From Xanthomonas sp. (GTDB taxonomy: Bacteria > Pseudomonadota > Gammaproteobacteria > Xanthomonadales > Xanthomonadaceae): a stretch of 64,000 bases of DNA. Below the pieces are notes generated by a model, which saw only the letters and a list, made by a program, of their open reading frames with translations, did not search any database and was not told the DNA's origin. The stretch covers positions 1 through 64,000 of the forward strand of contig NZ_JAFIWC010000011.1 of NCBI RefSeq assembly GCF_017163755.1, given 5' to 3'. Shown here one piece after another: positions 2,416-50,945 of this stretch. Position 1 is the stretch's first letter, and each line of letters begins with the position of its first letter. Both the position numbers and the translations under genes were made by a program.

Positions 2416-2478
2416 GGCGAAGCCCTCCTTGACGGCCAGAAACCCGCCGCCGACCGGCGACGGGATGTCGGGAGGTTA

Positions 2479-2496
2479 GAAACCGCTAACAGACGG
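2479..2496 (-). promoter_or_regulatory. Putative antisense target in the symE leader
   Basis: On the minus strand this segment reads CCGTCTGTTAGCGGTTTC. It is complementary, with small internal mismatches, to GAAACTCCTCTAACAGCGG (2628-2610, minus strand), which lies in the same leader upstream of a terminator. A C4-type arrangement would have the short upstream RNA pair here and occlude translation of the message. Other hairpins in between are CGACGC/GCGTCG (2538-2556) and CCCTTCGGGG. Confidence 0.5.
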
Positions 2497-2578
2497 CGGG
2501 CGTATTTCCCCGAAGGGTGTTGTATTAGCCGCCCTCCCGACGCAGGCATCGCGTCGGTTGCACCTGATGATCAGGCAC

Positions 2579-3672: not shown

Positions 3673-3758
3673 TCATTTCTCCTATTGGGTTGATTAAAAT
3701 AATAATTTCCATGAAACCACATTGAATGAGATGGAGCTGCTACATTGCTTGATAAGCC

Positions 3759-3815
3759 GTCTAGCGACTGAGTTAAGCCGAACCGCGAAGCGGGTTCGGT
3801 TAATGAATGGCGATG
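3759..3815 (-). other. attC-like integron recombination site
   Basis: On the minus strand the order is CATTCATTAACCGAACC, the loop-proximal CGCTTCGCG, GGTTCGGCTTAACTCAG and then GCTAGAC. This matches the architecture of attC sites of the aadA/Xanthomonas type (ATTCATTCAAGCCG ... CGGCTTAACTCAGGCGTTAGAC). The terminal R' core differs by one base from GTTAGAC, and the opposite R'' core is decayed. No integrase gene is present. Confidence 0.6.
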
Positions 3816-3937
3816 AGGACGATGCAAGCCTGCTCGTCGCCTACTGCGCGTGCAATCAGACACTATCGCGACAGCCAATAAGAACTGGTCGCTTAATTAC
3901 CTCCGTACTTTGTTTGTTGAGATAGAGCGAGATCCCG

Positions 3938-46294: not shown

Positions 46295-46352
46295 GCCTGA
46301 CAATTCATTCAAGCCGTACCCGCTTCGCGGCTCGGCTTAATTCAGACGTAGG
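46295..46352 (+). other. attC integron recombination site
   Basis: The order is GCCTGAC (R''), AATTCATTCAAGCCG (L''), a loop with CGCTTCGCGG, CGGCTTAATTCAGACG (L') and GTAGGC (R'). This is nearly the attC of aadA-type and xanthomonad cassettes (AATTCATTCAAGCCG ... CGGCTTAATTCAGGCGTTAGGC), with a single-base loss in R' and one change in R''. The next gene starts 8 bp after it, as in cassettes. Confidence 0.8.
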
Positions 46353-46359
46353 CCCATGA

Positions 46360-46701
46360 ATGGTCGCTTGGTTCGCTCTTCTAGCGGGATGCATTCTGCC
46401 TCTCATCATTCCTCTCTTCTTTGACAGGTCACGGGAGGAAAGAGGGCGACTTGCGGGCATGCTTTTCGGTGGATATGTGGCCCTCCATGGTGTAGTTGGC
46501 GCGGCCTTGATCATCTACCTCGCAATCGTTCATGGAACCGTTGGTATTGGCAGGCATGGGCCAAAAGCATGGTTCGCCTTCTCGGAAGAGCCTATTGCTG
46601 CAATGCTGGTCCTCCTCGTCACGCTCGCCTGCACCGGAGTATTCATGACCTTCGGCTGGTTCTTGTTCAAAGGCTCGCGAGATCGCAAACTCGAGCCCTA
46701 A
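46360..46701 (+). CDS. Integron-cassette membrane protein, 113 aa
   Basis: Three hydrophobic segments are visible (about 3-20 FALLAGCILPLIIPLFF, 35-55 YVALHGVVGAALIIYLA, 80-103 AMLVLLVTLACTGVFMTF), with short charged loops, so it is an inner-membrane protein. It begins 8 bp after an attC and its TAA stop lies inside the R'' core of the next attC, both typical of a gene cassette. Base composition is AT-richer than the chromosome. No family is recognised; cassettes often have weak promoters and this one has no obvious promoter of its own. Confidence 0.65.
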   Translation: MVAWFALLAGCILPLIIPLFFDRSREERGRLAGMLFGGYVALHGVVGAALIIYLAIVHGTVGIGRHGPKAWFAFSEEPIAAMLVLLVTLACTGVFMTFGWFLFKGSRDRKLEP

Positions 46702-46803
46702 TAGTTCTTCGAGCCGAATCCGTTCGAGAGTGGCTTGATTCAAGTGTTTGAGTACATGTCCTTCTTCCTGTGTCGTCTTCAACTTAACTCAGGATTAGAA
46801 GCC
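46696..46803 (+). other. Second attC-like site, ~108 bp
   Basis: The left half CCCTAATAGTTCTTCGAGCCG and GTGGCTTGATTCAAGTG resemble L''/L' arms, and the right end CTTAACTCAGGATTAGAAGCC matches the common attC ending TTAACTCAGGCGTTAGAAGCC. The stop codon of the preceding gene lies in the left core and the ATG of the next gene directly follows the right core. The site is decayed internally. Confidence 0.6.
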
Positions 46804-46804
46804 T

Positions 46805-47209
46805 ATGAAAGATCGCAAATCGCTTGAAGAGCTGACAAGGCAGTGGATCAGCCTATGGACATGTCCGGTGGACTGGGCGCTGTTCGAGGCACTGCACGCC
46901 GACGACTTTCAGGACTTGGCGGCGGCAGGACGACCTGCGACGAAGGCCGGTTTCGCGGCCGGCCTGAAGGCCATGACGGAAGCGTTCCCTGACCTCGAAA
47001 CGGTAGTGGACGACCTTGTGGTCGATGTTGAACGGCGGACGGTGGCGGTGCGGTGGACCAGCCGGGGTACCAACGCACGATCGTTCCTGGGCGTGGGCCC
47101 CACGGGTAAGCTGACCGAACTGCGTGGCATAGAGATCGTCGAGGTTCGCGATGGCAGGATCATTCGGCGCTGGGGCGAGTGGGACACGAGTGCTCACACC
47201 GGCACCTGA
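46805..47209 (+). CDS. SnoaL/NTF2-like protein, 134 aa (cassette gene)
   Basis: The fold of the SnoaL-like polyketide-cyclase family is recognisable from FEALHADDFQDLAAAGRPATKAGF, FPDLETVVDDLVVDVERRTVAVRW and LRGIEIVEVRDGRIIRRW. Members include ester cyclases, isomerases and many uncharacterised proteins; the pocket residues do not reveal a substrate. It begins two bases after an attC end, and its TGA stop lies in the R''-like core of the following half site. NTF2-like proteins are frequent integron cassette cargo. Confidence 0.75.
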   Translation: MKDRKSLEELTRQWISLWTCPVDWALFEALHADDFQDLAAAGRPATKAGFAAGLKAMTEAFPDLETVVDDLVVDVERRTVAVRWTSRGTNARSFLGVGPTGKLTELRGIEIVEVRDGRIIRRWGEWDTSAHTGT

Positions 47210-47225
47210 CGGTTCATTCGAGCCG
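47206..47225 (+). other. Half attC-like site
   Basis: CTGACGGTTCATTCGAGCCG resembles the left half of an attC (CTAACGGTTCATTCAAGCCG) and includes the TGA stop of the SnoaL-like gene. The right half is not recognisable. It would mark the end of the recognisable cassette array. Confidence 0.5.
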
Positions 47226-47288
47226 ATGCCGATGCGTGCGTGGTGTAGCTTAGGCAGCGGCCTCCGGACTTCAGTGGGATCGAGACAT

Positions 47289-47816
47289 ATGGACCGTTGC
47301 ATCCTGGCTATCGTCGTCCTGGGCTTCATGCTGGTGGCGGGCTCCATCTTTGCGCAGGACGCCGCAAAAGAGCCAGTCCCATCCCCGGCGTTGCCCGACG
47401 TCCCATTGCCACCTGAGCTGGACCGGGTGCTTCGCGACTACGAGCGCGCATGGCGCGCGGGCGATGCGGCGGCGCTCGCCGCGCTTTTTGCGGAGGATGG
47501 ATTCGTGCTGCAAAGCAATCGCCCCCCCGTCCGCGGCCGCCCGGCCATCCGGGCCGCCTATGCGGGCGAAGGGGGCGGTCCATTGCGGCTACGCGCACTC
47601 GCCTTTTCCAGCACGGACACGACCGGCTACATCATCGGTGCGTACGGCTACGGCAATACGCCCGGCGACGCGGGCAAGTTCACCCTTACTTTGCGTCGCA
47701 CTCCCGGCGGACCCTGGCTGATCTTTTCCGACATGGACAACTTGAACGCAGCGCCGAAGCAGAAGAGCGCAGCGCCCACGTCTTCGCCAGCCGGGTCCCC
47801 GGCGGCAACGCGCTGA
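47289..47816 (+). CDS. Exported SgcJ/EcaC-like (NTF2-fold) protein
   Basis: A signal peptide (LAIVVLGFMLVAGSIFAQ) precedes an NTF2-like domain: VLRDYERAWRAGDAAALAAL, FAEDGFVLQSNRPPVRGR, IRAAYAGEGGGP, then a beta-sheet ending WLIFSDMDNLN. This matches the DUF4440/SgcJ-EcaC group of probable calcium/calmodulin-kinase-association-like domains, whose bacterial role is unknown. The C-terminal 20 residues are disordered. The ATG at 47289 begins the signal peptide. It follows the SnoaL-like cassette gene, which has the same fold class. Confidence 0.75.
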   Translation: MDRCILAIVVLGFMLVAGSIFAQDAAKEPVPSPALPDVPLPPELDRVLRDYERAWRAGDAAALAALFAEDGFVLQSNRPPVRGRPAIRAAYAGEGGGPLRLRALAFSSTDTTGYIIGAYGYGNTPGDAGKFTLTLRRTPGGPWLIFSDMDNLNAAPKQKSAAPTSSPAGSPAATR

Positions 47817-48102
47817 TGCTGCAGCAAGGGACGTTCGTTCAAGCGATGGATTCGGGCCGAGCCCGCGACAGCGCGCGGCCCTGTGTTGCCACCGGTACTG
47901 CGCGTGGAAGACCCGGTTGCTTGCGCGTTCCGCCGCTGCCTGCCTGGCACTTCGTAGGTGGGTTCGCCACGTCGTTGCCACCTGTTTCGGTTTCTGCATG
48001 ATCGCGGCAGGGTGCCGGTCCGGTGCGCCACGGGATGGGCTGGGGCCTGACGACGTTCGAGCCGACGCCGCTTGGCGGTCCGGCGAAACCCGCCGCCAGC
48101 GC

Positions 48103-48420
48103 ATGGCATTTCGGCGACGTTCTTCGGAAAGCGGCGGGCTTCTTGCCGCACTGCTCGCGTTCTCCGCACCGGCCTGGGCGACGCGCCAATGCCCGCCCGA
48201 GTTCGGTCCGAAGGATCCGCTCGTCGACATGCTCGGCTGGCTGGTCGTCGCCGTGGGCATCGTGGTCGGCGTGCTGCTTTTCGCCTGGCTCGTCAGGCGA
48301 TCGCGGGGCATGCGCTGGGCGTTGCGTTGCGCCGTTGTCGTTCTCGGGGTTGCCGGCATGCTTGTGGTGTGGGTCGGTGGCCTGGCGCTGGCGTTCGCGT
48401 CCTTCTTCCTCCAGTGCTAG
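48103..48420 (+). CDS. Small membrane protein, 105 aa
   Basis: From the ATG at 48103 the product has a signal-like segment (GGLLAALLAFSAPAWA), a short extracytoplasmic stretch (RQCPPEFGPKDP), then two membrane helices (LVVAVGIVVGVLLFAWLV, AVVVLGVAGMLVVWVGGLAL). Open reading extends to 47917 but that part is not protein-like. It is one of three consecutive small membrane proteins without recognised families. Confidence 0.5.
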   Translation: MAFRRRSSESGGLLAALLAFSAPAWATRQCPPEFGPKDPLVDMLGWLVVAVGIVVGVLLFAWLVRRSRGMRWALRCAVVVLGVAGMLVVWVGGLALAFASFFLQC

Positions 48421-48808: not shown

Positions 48809-48920
48809 GCTCGGTGCGTGGGCGACGCCGTTCGCGCCGATCGAACCGATGCCGCTCCGCATGCCGGCATGGTCCAAGCGTTGGTCCGTCCGAAGGAACC
48901 GAGGAGAAAAACGGAACGCT

Positions 48921-49193
48921 ATGAACCAGATGGTCTTTCTCATGTTCTTCTTCGCGACCGGGCCGATCGCGCTGATGCCGAGCGTCATTTCCCTGTTCAC
49001 CCGGCACAAGTCGCGCCGGTTGATCGTGGCGGTCAACCTGGCGCTGTGGGTCCTGATCTTCTTTGCCGCCAGGAGCTTCACCATCGGCACGTCCAGCAAG
49101 TTCCAGTTGCCGACGCTGCTGGCGTTGGCCGCCTGGCTGGTCCTGCTCGGCTACTCGGTGCGTGGCGGCGCGTCGTCCCCCGGAAAGCGCTAG
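48921..49193 (+). CDS. Small membrane protein resembling superinfection-immunity proteins
   Basis: The 90-aa product has helices at 3-25 (MVFLMFFFATGPIALMPSVI) and 35-50 (LIVAVNLALWVLIFFAA), then 65-80. The pattern PSVISLFTRHKSRRLIVAVNL resembles the T4 Imm-type superinfection immunity family (P-S-I...R-x-H-K/R...N-L), though shorter in conserved features; the resemblance is tentative. GGAG lies about 14 nt before the ATG at 48921. It directly precedes the GNAT-MazF fusion gene. Confidence 0.5.
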   Translation: MNQMVFLMFFFATGPIALMPSVISLFTRHKSRRLIVAVNLALWVLIFFAARSFTIGTSSKFQLPTLLALAAWLVLLGYSVRGGASSPGKR

Positions 49194-49235
49194 CCAAGCC
49201 GGCTCGGCTGGCGCCGCTGCGCAGGCATTGGACCC

Positions 49236-50063
49236 ATGAAGCATTCCATCCAGCCGCTGCAACCGAATGCGAGCGTGCAGGCGCTGCTGGAAGCGAACCG
49301 CCTGCCCGTTTCCGATCTCCAAGACGGTTCCGAGGTGGTGCTGTTCGGCTGCGTGTCGGGTGCGCAAACGCTCGGCGTGGTCGGATTGGAACTGTATGGG
49401 CCCGTCGCATTGCTGAGGTCGCTGGCCGTGGCCGACGCCACGCGCGGCAACGGACTCGGCGAGGCTCTGGTGGCGCATGCCGAGCGCCATGCCGCCGCTC
49501 AGGGCGTCCGTGCCGTCTACCTGCTCACCACCACGGCGTCGGCGTTCTTCGAGCGTCGCGGCTACCGTCCGCTGGCGCGCGACCAGGCGCCGGCCGCAAT
49601 CGCCGGCACCGCCCAGTTTTCCGGGCTGTGCCCTGCGTCGTCTGCGTTCATGGTCAAGTCGCCGCCGGGCGCCGCGGACGCCCAGCCGGAGACGCTGCCG
49701 AATCGGGGCGTCCGCCGCGGCGATATCTATTGGCTCGCCCCCGACGGACCGCATGGGTCGGTTCCGTCCATCCGGCATCCGCACGTCGTCGTCCAGGACG
49801 ACCTGTTCAATGCGTCGAGAGTGGCCACCATCGTGGTGTGCGGTATCACCTCCAACCTCACGCGCGCCTCCGAGCCCGGCACGGTGCTTCTCGACGCGGG
49901 AGAGGGTGGGCTCGCGCGACGTAGCGTCGTGCTGGCATCGCAGATTTGCTCGGTCGACAGAGCGCAGTTCGGCGACTGCGTCGGCACGCTCTCGCAGCGG
50001 CGGGTCGAGCAGATCCTGTCGAGCCTGCGGTTCCTGCAGCGCGCGTTCATCGCCGGTCGCTAG
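49236..50063 (+). CDS. GNAT acetyltransferase - MazF/PemK fusion, 275 aa
   Basis: Two domains share one uninterrupted frame. Residues 1-~140 are a GNAT acetyltransferase with acetyl-CoA motif SLAVADATRGNGLGEAL (62-78) and FFERRGYRPL (104-113), most like ArsN2-type enzymes. After a linker, residues 158-270 match MazF/PemK mRNA interferases: RRGDIYWLAPDGPHGS (160-175), RHPHVVVQDDLFN (180-192), ITSNLTRA (204-211) and RRSVVLASQICSVDRAQFG (228-246). The consensus R-P after the first loop is R-H-P here. No antitoxin gene is adjacent; the GNAT domain or another factor may restrain the toxin domain. It starts 43 bp after a small membrane protein. Domain calls are strong; joint function is unknown. 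Confidence 0.85.
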   Translation: MKHSIQPLQPNASVQALLEANRLPVSDLQDGSEVVLFGCVSGAQTLGVVGLELYGPVALLRSLAVADATRGNGLGEALVAHAERHAAAQGVRAVYLLTTTASAFFERRGYRPLARDQAPAAIAGTAQFSGLCPASSAFMVKSPPGAADAQPETLPNRGVRRGDIYWLAPDGPHGSVPSIRHPHVVVQDDLFNASRVATIVVCGITSNLTRASEPGTVLLDAGEGGLARRSVVLASQICSVDRAQFGDCVGTLSQRRVEQILSSLRFLQRAFIAGR

Positions 50064-50243
50064 CCGGCGTTTCACCGGCGGCCGCGCGTAGTGCGAGACC
50101 TGGAGCGCACCGGACGCGGCCGGCAGATGCGCAACGCCGGGTGGAGGATAGTGCGCGGATCGCCGCAGGCGCGTTGCCGAGCGCGGTTGTCCATGCCAGC
50201 CACAACGGCTGCGACTGCGCGGGATCGCTGGTAAGGTCGCGGC

Positions 50244-50945
50244 ATGCCCGATCACGATTTCATCGAAGTCTTCGACAACGCGCTCGCGCGCGAGGAGTGC
50301 GCGGCCATCGTGCGGCGCCTGCGCGGGAGCGAGCAGCTGCAGCCCGGTCAGGTCGGCAGCGGCGTGTTCCCCGAGCTCAAGCGCAGCCGCGACCTGCGCA
50401 TCAGCGGGCTGGACGCCTGGCGCGATGTGGAACAGCGCCTGCAGCAGGCGGTGTTCTCCGGCGTGCTCGGCTACCTGCGCAAGTATCCGCAGGCCTTGTT
50501 GTCGCCGCTGATGCTGCAGGTGCCCGGGCCCGACGGCCAGCCGCATCGGCTCGGCGCCGAGGATTTCTCGCTGCTCGACGACGCGGCGCTGTCCAACCTG
50601 GCGCGCACCTGCCTGCGCCCGGGCGCGATCAACCTGCAGTGGTACGACGCCGGCCAGGGCGGCTACCCGTACTGGCATTGCGAACTGTATCCGCGCGATC
50701 CCGGCGCCGAAACGCTGCACCGGCACCTGCTGTGGACGCTGTATCTCAACGACGACTTCGATGCCGGCGAGACCGAGTTCCTGTTCCAGCAGCGCAAGAT
50801 CGCCCCACTTGCCGGCAGCCTGCTGATCGCGCCGACCGCCTTCACCCACACCCACCGCGGCAACCGTCCACAGGGCGGCGACAAGTTCATCGCCACCAGC
50901 TGGGTGCTGTTCCAGACGGCGCAGCAGCTCTACGGCGCCGGCTGA
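50244..50945 (+). CDS. 2-oxoglutarate/Fe(II) oxygenase, prolyl-hydroxylase-like
   Basis: The 233-aa protein has the double-stranded beta-helix fold of prolyl 4-hydroxylase-like oxygenases. Probable iron ligands are H145 and E147 (YWHCELYPRD) and H204 (FTHTHRGNRP), with K214 in place of Arg as the 2-oxoglutarate-binding residue; LLWTLYLNDDFDAGETEF is typical of the fold. An E in the second position instead of D is unusual. There is no signal peptide. Its 3' end overlaps the convergent LysR gene by 16 bp. The substrate is unknown. Confidence 0.8.
   Translation: MPDHDFIEVFDNALAREECAAIVRRLRGSEQLQPGQVGSGVFPELKRSRDLRISGLDAWRDVEQRLQQAVFSGVLGYLRKYPQALLSPLMLQVPGPDGQPHRLGAEDFSLLDDAALSNLARTCLRPGAINLQWYDAGQGGYPYWHCELYPRDPGAETLHRHLLWTLYLNDDFDAGETEFLFQQRKIAPLAGSLLIAPTAFTHTHRGNRPQGGDKFIATSWVLFQTAQQLYGAG

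Follow-up and report, generated by a model that had tools for sequence, protein, structure and literature searches.

Results

A single gene joins an ArsN2-type acetyltransferase to a complete MazF domain

The window, i.e., the whole stretch of 64,000 nucleotides of Xanthomonas sp. DNA that was analyzed, carries a fusion gene at positions 49236..50063 of the forward strand, on which all features given below lie unless stated otherwise. No stop or frame change interrupts this span, which reads from ATG to stop and encodes 275 residues. Residues 12–141 (49269..49658) form a GNAT domain of the arsenic-resistance type ArsN2 that scored 149.7 bits with the NCBIfam model NF040501, above the equivalog cut-off of 125; Pfam GNAT families matched residues 31–118. 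The motif RGNGLG, placed from the sequence at residues 70–75 (49443..49460), is the acetyl-CoA binding motif. A linker of residues 142–158 (49659..49709) leads to the second domain at residues 160–265 (49713..50030), which matched the Pfam family PemK_toxin (PF02452) with an E-value of 5.7e-20, over profile positions 1–106 of 109 and with 72 bits against a cut-off of 23.1. This match, its fold and its identity to a Myxococcus xanthus protein define it as a MazF-mx-like RNase domain. It contains RGDIYW at residue 161, ITSN at 204 and SVVLASQICSVD at 230, and is the sole PF02452 match of its own genome.

An earlier note on this DNA had described a GNAT domain and a complete MazF domain in one frame. 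The single 275-residue ORF with its Pfam and NCBIfam matches bears this out, and the motif positions given in the note were right to within a few residues. A frameshift at this locus, named in the note as one of the outcomes that would speak against its reading, did not occur, as the ORF is unbroken. Codon-position GC was 0.73/0.51/0.82 in residues 1–141 and 0.69/0.50/0.85 in residues 159–275; such even values on both sides of the junction are typical of a single genuine gene. The uninterrupted frame and the even codon usage thus rule out a frameshift or split-gene artefact, and the fusion is real and complete. An artefact of assembly or sequencing that joined two separate genes would be in line with the single genome concerned, a draft of 75 contigs, and with the single member sequence of the exact fusion in the protein database. 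However, the junction is located well within a contig, 150 kb in length, and has conserved flanks on either side, and the even codon composition as well as linker residues found also in a metagenomic protein argue against it, which makes an artefact scarcely credible.

This metagenomic protein, P0002, is an 86% identical ArsN2 that has linker residues in common with the fusion and stops where the MazF domain begins. Because P0002 carries the same linker residues and ends at the junction, the linker is probably an old ArsN2 tail. An in-frame ATG at codon 139 may give rise to a putative MazF-only product of 137 residues (window positions 49650–50063), close in size to the 131–139 residues of many solo relatives; internal initiation at this codon would yield a separate RNase from the same gene.

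AlphaFold modeling (alignment A4) gave a mean pLDDT of 89.4 and a pTM of 0.56, with residues 147–153 below a pLDDT of 50. From these values, two folded domains are predicted with confidence whereas their relative placement is not, and the linker is predicted to be loose and flexible. The best PDB matches of the model in Foldseek were MazF-mt3 structures, some of them RNA-bound, with a target-normalized TM-score of 0.90 for 5hkc; the RNA-bound Bacillus subtilis MazF 4mdx matched with a target-normalized TM-score of 0.83. Together with the PF02452 score, the TM-score of 0.90 identifies a complete SH3-like barrel of the MazF/PemK type. The structure prediction that the earlier note had asked for hence returned a MazF fold for the C-terminal part, and the opposite outcome, a C-terminal part without the MazF barrel, did not occur.

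The GNAT half matched N-acetylglutamate synthase 2r8v in Foldseek. This agrees with a published account in which arsN2 groups with N-acetylglutamate synthases more closely than with phosphinothricin acetyltransferases (PMC6465285). The domain therefore resembles ArsN2, i.e., clade 2 of the ArsN acetyltransferases, in its score above the equivalog cut-off and in its relation to N-acetylglutamate synthases by fold and in print. It differs in its RNase tail and in its setting: the ArsN genes described in PMC6465285 sit in ars operons, whereas the fusion gene is flanked by a small ORF on one side and by a 2OG oxygenase-family gene on the other, and no ars family was found among ten further neighbors scanned.

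The fusion gene occupies a site of gene turnover

Upstream of the fusion gene lies a small membrane-type ORF (48921..49193), downstream a 2OG-Fe(II) oxygenase-family gene (50244..50945), which was assigned from Pfam and synteny and forms a conserved flank. We surveyed 20 genomes of the genus, the own genome included, and examined the locus in 16 of the 19 others, with G002, G009 and G016 left out. A fructose-bisphosphatase gene upstream and the 2OG oxygenase-family gene downstream are conserved as flanks in most of the 20 genomes. Both flanks and the small ORF were matched in 15 of the 16 loci, the sixteenth matching in the upstream flank only, and the span of the fusion gene had no BLASTN match in any of these 16 loci. 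The gap between small ORF and oxygenase gene measures at most 114 bases in four loci (L160–L163), contains other genes or a gene piece in ten, and consists of 345 bases without a listed frame in L172. The interval 49194–50243 thus marks a position of gene turnover in the genus: in L160–L174 it is short or differently filled, and what it holds there resembles, as judged by eye, an NAD(P)H/FMN reductase, a nucleoside deoxyribosyltransferase or a gene of unknown kind.

The earlier note had placed the gene after a cassette array, and we could trace such an array. It starts with an attC-type site at 46295..46360 that scored 98 in the scan (background 18 ± 4), continues with decayed attC-like sites at 46681..48150 (scores 56, 38 and 39 in the scan segments starting at 46681, 47201 and 48041), with a borderline score of 32 in the segment starting at 48841. 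The site at 46295–46360 aligns with 20 sites of the genus, which include one of the own genome, and dozens of matching sites occur in genus genomes; we take this repeat to be the integron attC of the genus. A second attC-like site (score 72) lies on the reverse strand at about 3721–3870, some 1.2 kb from a match to sRNA-Xcc1 (2459–2541, reverse strand), which points to Xanthomonas or a closely related genus. No integron integrase scored above cut-off in the own genome. For the fusion gene itself, the status of an integron gene cassette was not supported, as a cassette would carry an attC at its 3′ end and no score of 26 or more was obtained in the scan segments starting from 48881 to 50250.

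Two further proposals of the earlier note found no backing. The small membrane protein, there likened to superinfection-immunity proteins, had no Pfam, NCBIfam or PADLOC match, and a defense role is unsupported since the locus had no PADLOC match; we therefore dropped the defense system as a candidate. A phage or plasmid gene was likewise rejected: two scans of viral contigs returned no relatives, and none of the 202 matching plasmid records covered more than 80% of the query, the 25 listed ones matching mainly the ArsN2 half.

The MazF half belongs to a MazF-mx-like subfamily with histidine in place of the catalytic arginine

In a HMMER alignment to Bacillus cereus MazF (7bxy), Thr205 (49848..49850) falls on the catalytic Thr48, and the position of the catalytic Arg25 is taken by His181 (49776..49778). 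A His-Pro-His motif stands where ordinary MazF has Arg-Pro. Mutation of Arg25 or Thr48 is reported to cripple B. cereus MazF, and some MazFs carry Lys for Arg or Ser for Thr (PMC7354611). In our alignment A7, which comprises the window protein and 45 long or fused relatives, histidine occupies the Arg25 position in 46 of 46 rows.

To survey the subfamily, we assembled 102 MazF-mx-like loci, i.e., 80 (the best 80 of 120) from a contig scan and 22 from whole-protein searches. Counts of histidine at these loci are partly circular, since the 80 scanned loci came from patterns including "HP" and our scripts sought the same motif. The best 80 of the 120 scanned loci were mostly from Myxococcota and included M. 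xanthus AM003, whose gene (L102) encodes a protein of 122 residues; in an alignment of 114 residues, this protein is 60% identical to the MazF domain of the window. This gene also has histidine at the Arg25 position, and no other PF02452 match occurs in that genome. According to a review, M. xanthus has a solitary mazF gene and no mazE (PMC4803016), and MazF-mx is reported to cut GU^UGC (PMC5408214). Because the AM003 gene is the only PF02452 match there and the M. xanthus mazF is solitary in print, we infer that it is MazF-mx; if so, histidine at the Arg25 position does not abolish cutting. Among the large Myxococcota genomes, many (e.g., G849–G867 and G889–G911) have exactly one PF02452 match of any subtype at E 1e-8, a pattern that suggests a conserved single-copy MazF.

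Phylogenetic analysis separated Arg-type from HPH-type domains by a 100/100 branch, with an Arg-type outgroup of three sequences only. The MazF half has an HPHVVVQDD-type motif, clusters with the M. xanthus protein apart from the Arg-type, and keeps the conserved residues of the subfamily. Sequence comparison hence identifies it as a member of the MazF-mx-like subfamily and not as a MazEF toxin whose partner has been lost. It is like MazF-mx in its 60% identical RNase domain, in the same HPH motif with its histidine and in belonging to a subfamily without a conserved adjoining antitoxin; it differs in that MazF-mx is a single-domain protein, whereas the domain described here is fused to ArsN2.

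MazF-mx-like genes lack a conserved adjoining antitoxin

Among the scanned neighbors of the fusion gene, Pfam and NCBIfam revealed no antitoxin family. To assess the subfamily as a whole, we clustered by BLASTP the same-strand ORFs of 38–160 residues that adjoin the MazF domain on its upstream or downstream side. The test set were 97 MazF-mx-like loci, i.e., the 102 less the duplicates L031, L032, L098, L123 and L133; the control set were 29 Arg-type loci out of 34 control loci, from which four His-type loci and one with an unclear residue had been left out. At the MazF-mx-like loci, the largest groups of common small neighbors span 4 of 97 (downstream) and 3 of 97 (upstream), followed by groups of two. 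In contrast, 23 of the 29 Arg-type loci have a common upstream neighbor, which by eye is of RHH type in 13 and of AbrB type in ten. Hence, with the Arg-type loci as positive control, no conserved antitoxin was found in the genes adjoining the MazF domain at the 97 MazF-mx-like loci. This test covers adjoining genes, and a distant antitoxin, as claimed for MrpC, lies outside its reach. A search of 138 small neighboring ORFs with Pfam antitoxin families gave no match, but as it also missed a positive control, L015, that looks RHH-like by eye, we give this search no weight.

Two of the shared neighbors may be mentioned. In the same taxonomic family, the near relatives L042, L043, L046 and L048, from Lysobacter-type genomes, share a gene for about 143 residues that directly follows the MazF-mx-like gene and by eye is not antitoxin-looking. 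The three-locus upstream neighbor is DUF2200; a gene of this type directly precedes the MazF-mx-like gene in L119 and L124 (and in L031, L032 and L027), i.e., in Pseudoxanthomonas and a near relative.

MazEF and PemIK type II pairs thus share the fold with the MazF half but have an antitoxin gene beside the toxin, which is seen neither at this locus nor across the subfamily, and they have the catalytic arginine that is histidine here. The earlier note had contrasted the usual pairing of MazF toxins with the missing antitoxin gene at this locus. That none is recognized at the locus stands, but the reasoning was the wrong way round, since the unfused relatives also do without a conserved one. 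For the same reason the GNAT half need not stand in for an antitoxin, and an orphaned MazEF toxin is ruled out as a candidate.

The exact fusion is confined to one of the sampled genomes

The earlier note had proposed to look for the same domain pair in other genomes, and this search came back empty among 395 sampled genomes of the taxonomic family and 369 of the class. In the family sample, 109 genomes matched either half at E ≤1e-12, and in the class sample, 17 matched at E ≤1e-20; in both, the two halves were found in one gene in the own genome only. The nearest unfused halves of the family sample are an ArsN2 (L023, 72% identical) and a MazF (L024, 67%). A conserved ArsN2-MazF domain pair was therefore rejected, as the other listed matches of both samples are halves. 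Most likely, the fusion was made once, within the lineage of this species, at the gene-turnover site beside the cassette array.

Because the exact fusion is found in one genome only, it may have arisen recently by accident and lack a function. In this main rival explanation the accident was neutral, two genes having been joined by gene turnover next to the cassette array; the RNase half is inactive or decaying, and the protein is in effect an acetyltransferase with a tail. Its occurrence in 1 of 395 family genomes, the gene-turnover site, the replaced catalytic arginine and the ArsN2 tail of P0002, which reaches the junction and stops there, would all be in agreement with such an accident. Against it, the MazF half retains the conserved residues of its subfamily and has a branch length of 0.22, compared with a tree median of 0.23, and this ordinary branch length and intact motif lean against decay as far as can be read from sequence. 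Moreover, histidine for arginine is common to the subfamily, the M. xanthus protein included, and the latter is reported to be active if it is MazF-mx. We hence consider the neutral accident rather unlikely, even though it is the most serious competitor.

Related MazF domains are joined to many different partners

We searched for longer proteins with the MazF part of a 435-residue relative, admitting proteins of about 239–761 residues at E ≤1e-10. Including the window protein, 41 long relatives were found, and 29 of them (28 of 40 without the window protein) have a second precomputed Pfam family. By Pfam label, 14 partner kinds were obtained, i.e., GNAT, TetR, YqeY, polyketide cyclase, rifampin ADP-ribosyltransferase, PepSY, FMN reductase/flavodoxin, cupin, SnoaL, PhzF, glyoxalase, DUF309, class V aminotransferase and MmeI spacer, the last one in a suspect protein. 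PadR and RHH from other searches bring the number to 16 by Pfam label, one of them suspect. The chimera-like protein P0167 was counted only in the Pfam tally of the 41 long relatives. The fusions of relatives are known at the protein level, and many come from short metagenome contigs.

In 20 fusions scanned in detail, the MazF profile was nearly complete throughout and most partners were full or nearly full, e.g., rifampin ADP-ribosyltransferase (1–99 of 99), PhzF (2–278 of 281), TetR_C (3–145 of 146) and glyoxalase (2–120 of 121). YqeY in P0036 and AAA in P0152 were below cut-off, and GNAT in P0166 and PepSY in P0142 were partial. Since the MazF part comes first in P0133, P0148, P0158, P0160 and P0161, partners occur at either end. 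The GNAT partners themselves differ: that of the window protein is ArsN2, that of P0011 is Sat3-like (197 bits, cut-off 360), and the others are unassigned or weak. In P0139, a rifampin ADP-ribosyltransferase above the NCBIfam equivalog cut-off is joined to a MazF-mx-like domain.

In a tree of 75 MazF domains, with 36 of its 72 inner forks drawn open, seven changes are required to account for the seven GNAT fusions, and at least four of these changes are forced by well-supported branches. The window domain falls into a five-member group (96/90) in which three members have long N-terminal parts of three kinds, namely ArsN2, a Sat3-like GNAT and a region without Pfam match in P0012. The sister domains P0149 and P0159 (99/83) carry SnoaL and GNAT, respectively. 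Conversely, 31 of the 102 surveyed loci (97 without duplicates) have a long upstream frame, and at E 0.001 none of these contained a second Pfam family; the remaining loci have no room upstream for a second domain. With many partner kinds in the long relatives but none in the 31 scanned loci, fusion appears to be rare per gene yet varied, in counts that cover the MazF-mx-like subfamily alone. As the partner domains of related fusions are diverse, sequence data speak against a GNAT-specific mechanism common to the family.

This bears on the proposal of the earlier note that the GNAT half is a built-in restraint. Such an antitoxin in cis would cover the RNA groove or part the MazF dimer until a ligand or protease frees it. 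Precedents exist in print: in EzeT the antitoxin is part of the toxin's own chain, and further toxins have been described within multi-domain proteins (PMC4803016, PMC4826407). EzeT and elongated toxins such as PhoH2, a PIN-PhoH protein, resemble the fusion in having a toxin domain within a longer protein (PMC4826407), but the partner in EzeT is its own antitoxin whereas here it is a complete metabolic-type enzyme. The open-licence literature, as far as it was available, contained on MazF fusions only a mention in general terms of PemK domains in multi-domain proteins (PMC4826407).

Some relatives of the window protein have an RHH-like N-terminal domain, which likewise would suit a restraint. 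We found this domain before a MazF-mx-like one in L138:1592–2125 (Anaerolineae), P0123 and P0131, where it matched RHH_3 at E 1.8e-4 in P0123, RHH_1 at E 0.022 and thus below cut-off in L138, and RHH_1 as a precomputed match in P0131. RHH is the usual antitoxin fold, and these chains are possible natural toxin-antitoxin fusions. On the other side, unfused relatives do without a conserved neighboring antitoxin, the partners are unrelated to each other and mostly to antitoxins too and stand on either side of MazF, and the model has no confident contact between the halves (pTM 0.56). A restraint by the GNAT half therefore seems improbable to us.

A gated RNase, in which acetyl-CoA or the ArsN2 substrate on the GNAT half switches RNA cutting on or off, is more improbable still. 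The acetyl-CoA motif is intact, and the partners in related fusions often belong to families such as TetR, PadR, cupin, glyoxalase and GNAT, all of which bind small molecules; however, the linker, disordered in the model, would be a poor transmitter. Both restraint by GNAT and coupling to acetyl-CoA are possible but unsupported.

Discussion

We propose that the protein is an ArsN2 linked to a MazF-mx-like domain, i.e., a tethered two-enzyme protein whose RNase half would cut RNA at a short sequence without an antitoxin, and we give this reading a probability of roughly 55%. Its sequence-derived basis has been shown, namely a single frame, two whole domains, a subfamily without conserved adjoining antitoxin and the joining of the same subfamily to partners elsewhere; the folds and the loose linker are predicted from the model. 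Several points stand against it: His181 is located at the residue whose mutation cripples other MazFs (PMC7354611), the exact fusion occurs in one genome, and fusions are rare at the surveyed loci.

As a mechanism, the MazF half would mediate dimerization, as it does in MazF proteins, with His181 and Thr205 as the likely active site. For the ArsN2 half, the substrate of acetylation would be a small amino compound. The RNase would be weak, or expressed tightly enough, to be harmless during normal growth, and the fusion would mainly serve to tether the halves and to express them together, and not to let either half control its partner. A pair of co-expressed enzymes on one chain is the simplest working model. 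The sequence data agree with an RNase domain that is sufficient by itself, tolerates unrelated partners and on occasion becomes fixed together with them.

A broader reading takes the MazF-mx-type domain as an antitoxin-free RNase module that has been bolted repeatedly, at either end, to unrelated small-molecule enzymes and regulators to give partner-addressed or partner-gated RNases, with ArsN2-MazF as one such hybrid. We put it forward tentatively and hold it to be doubtful. If it were true, an enzyme that modifies antimetabolites would bring along a translation brake of its own.

The literature disagrees on whether MazF-mx acts together with an antitoxin or without one; MrpC was initially described as its antitoxin, then as an enhancer (PMC4803016). 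Our survey turns this one-species dispute into a subfamily-wide test, with 97 loci that have no conserved adjoining antitoxin gene and with histidine at the acid/base position, for which the many natural fusions offer ready-made controls. Should the fused RNase prove active, MazF would be tolerated without an adjacent antidote and would have been attached by evolution to other enzymes.
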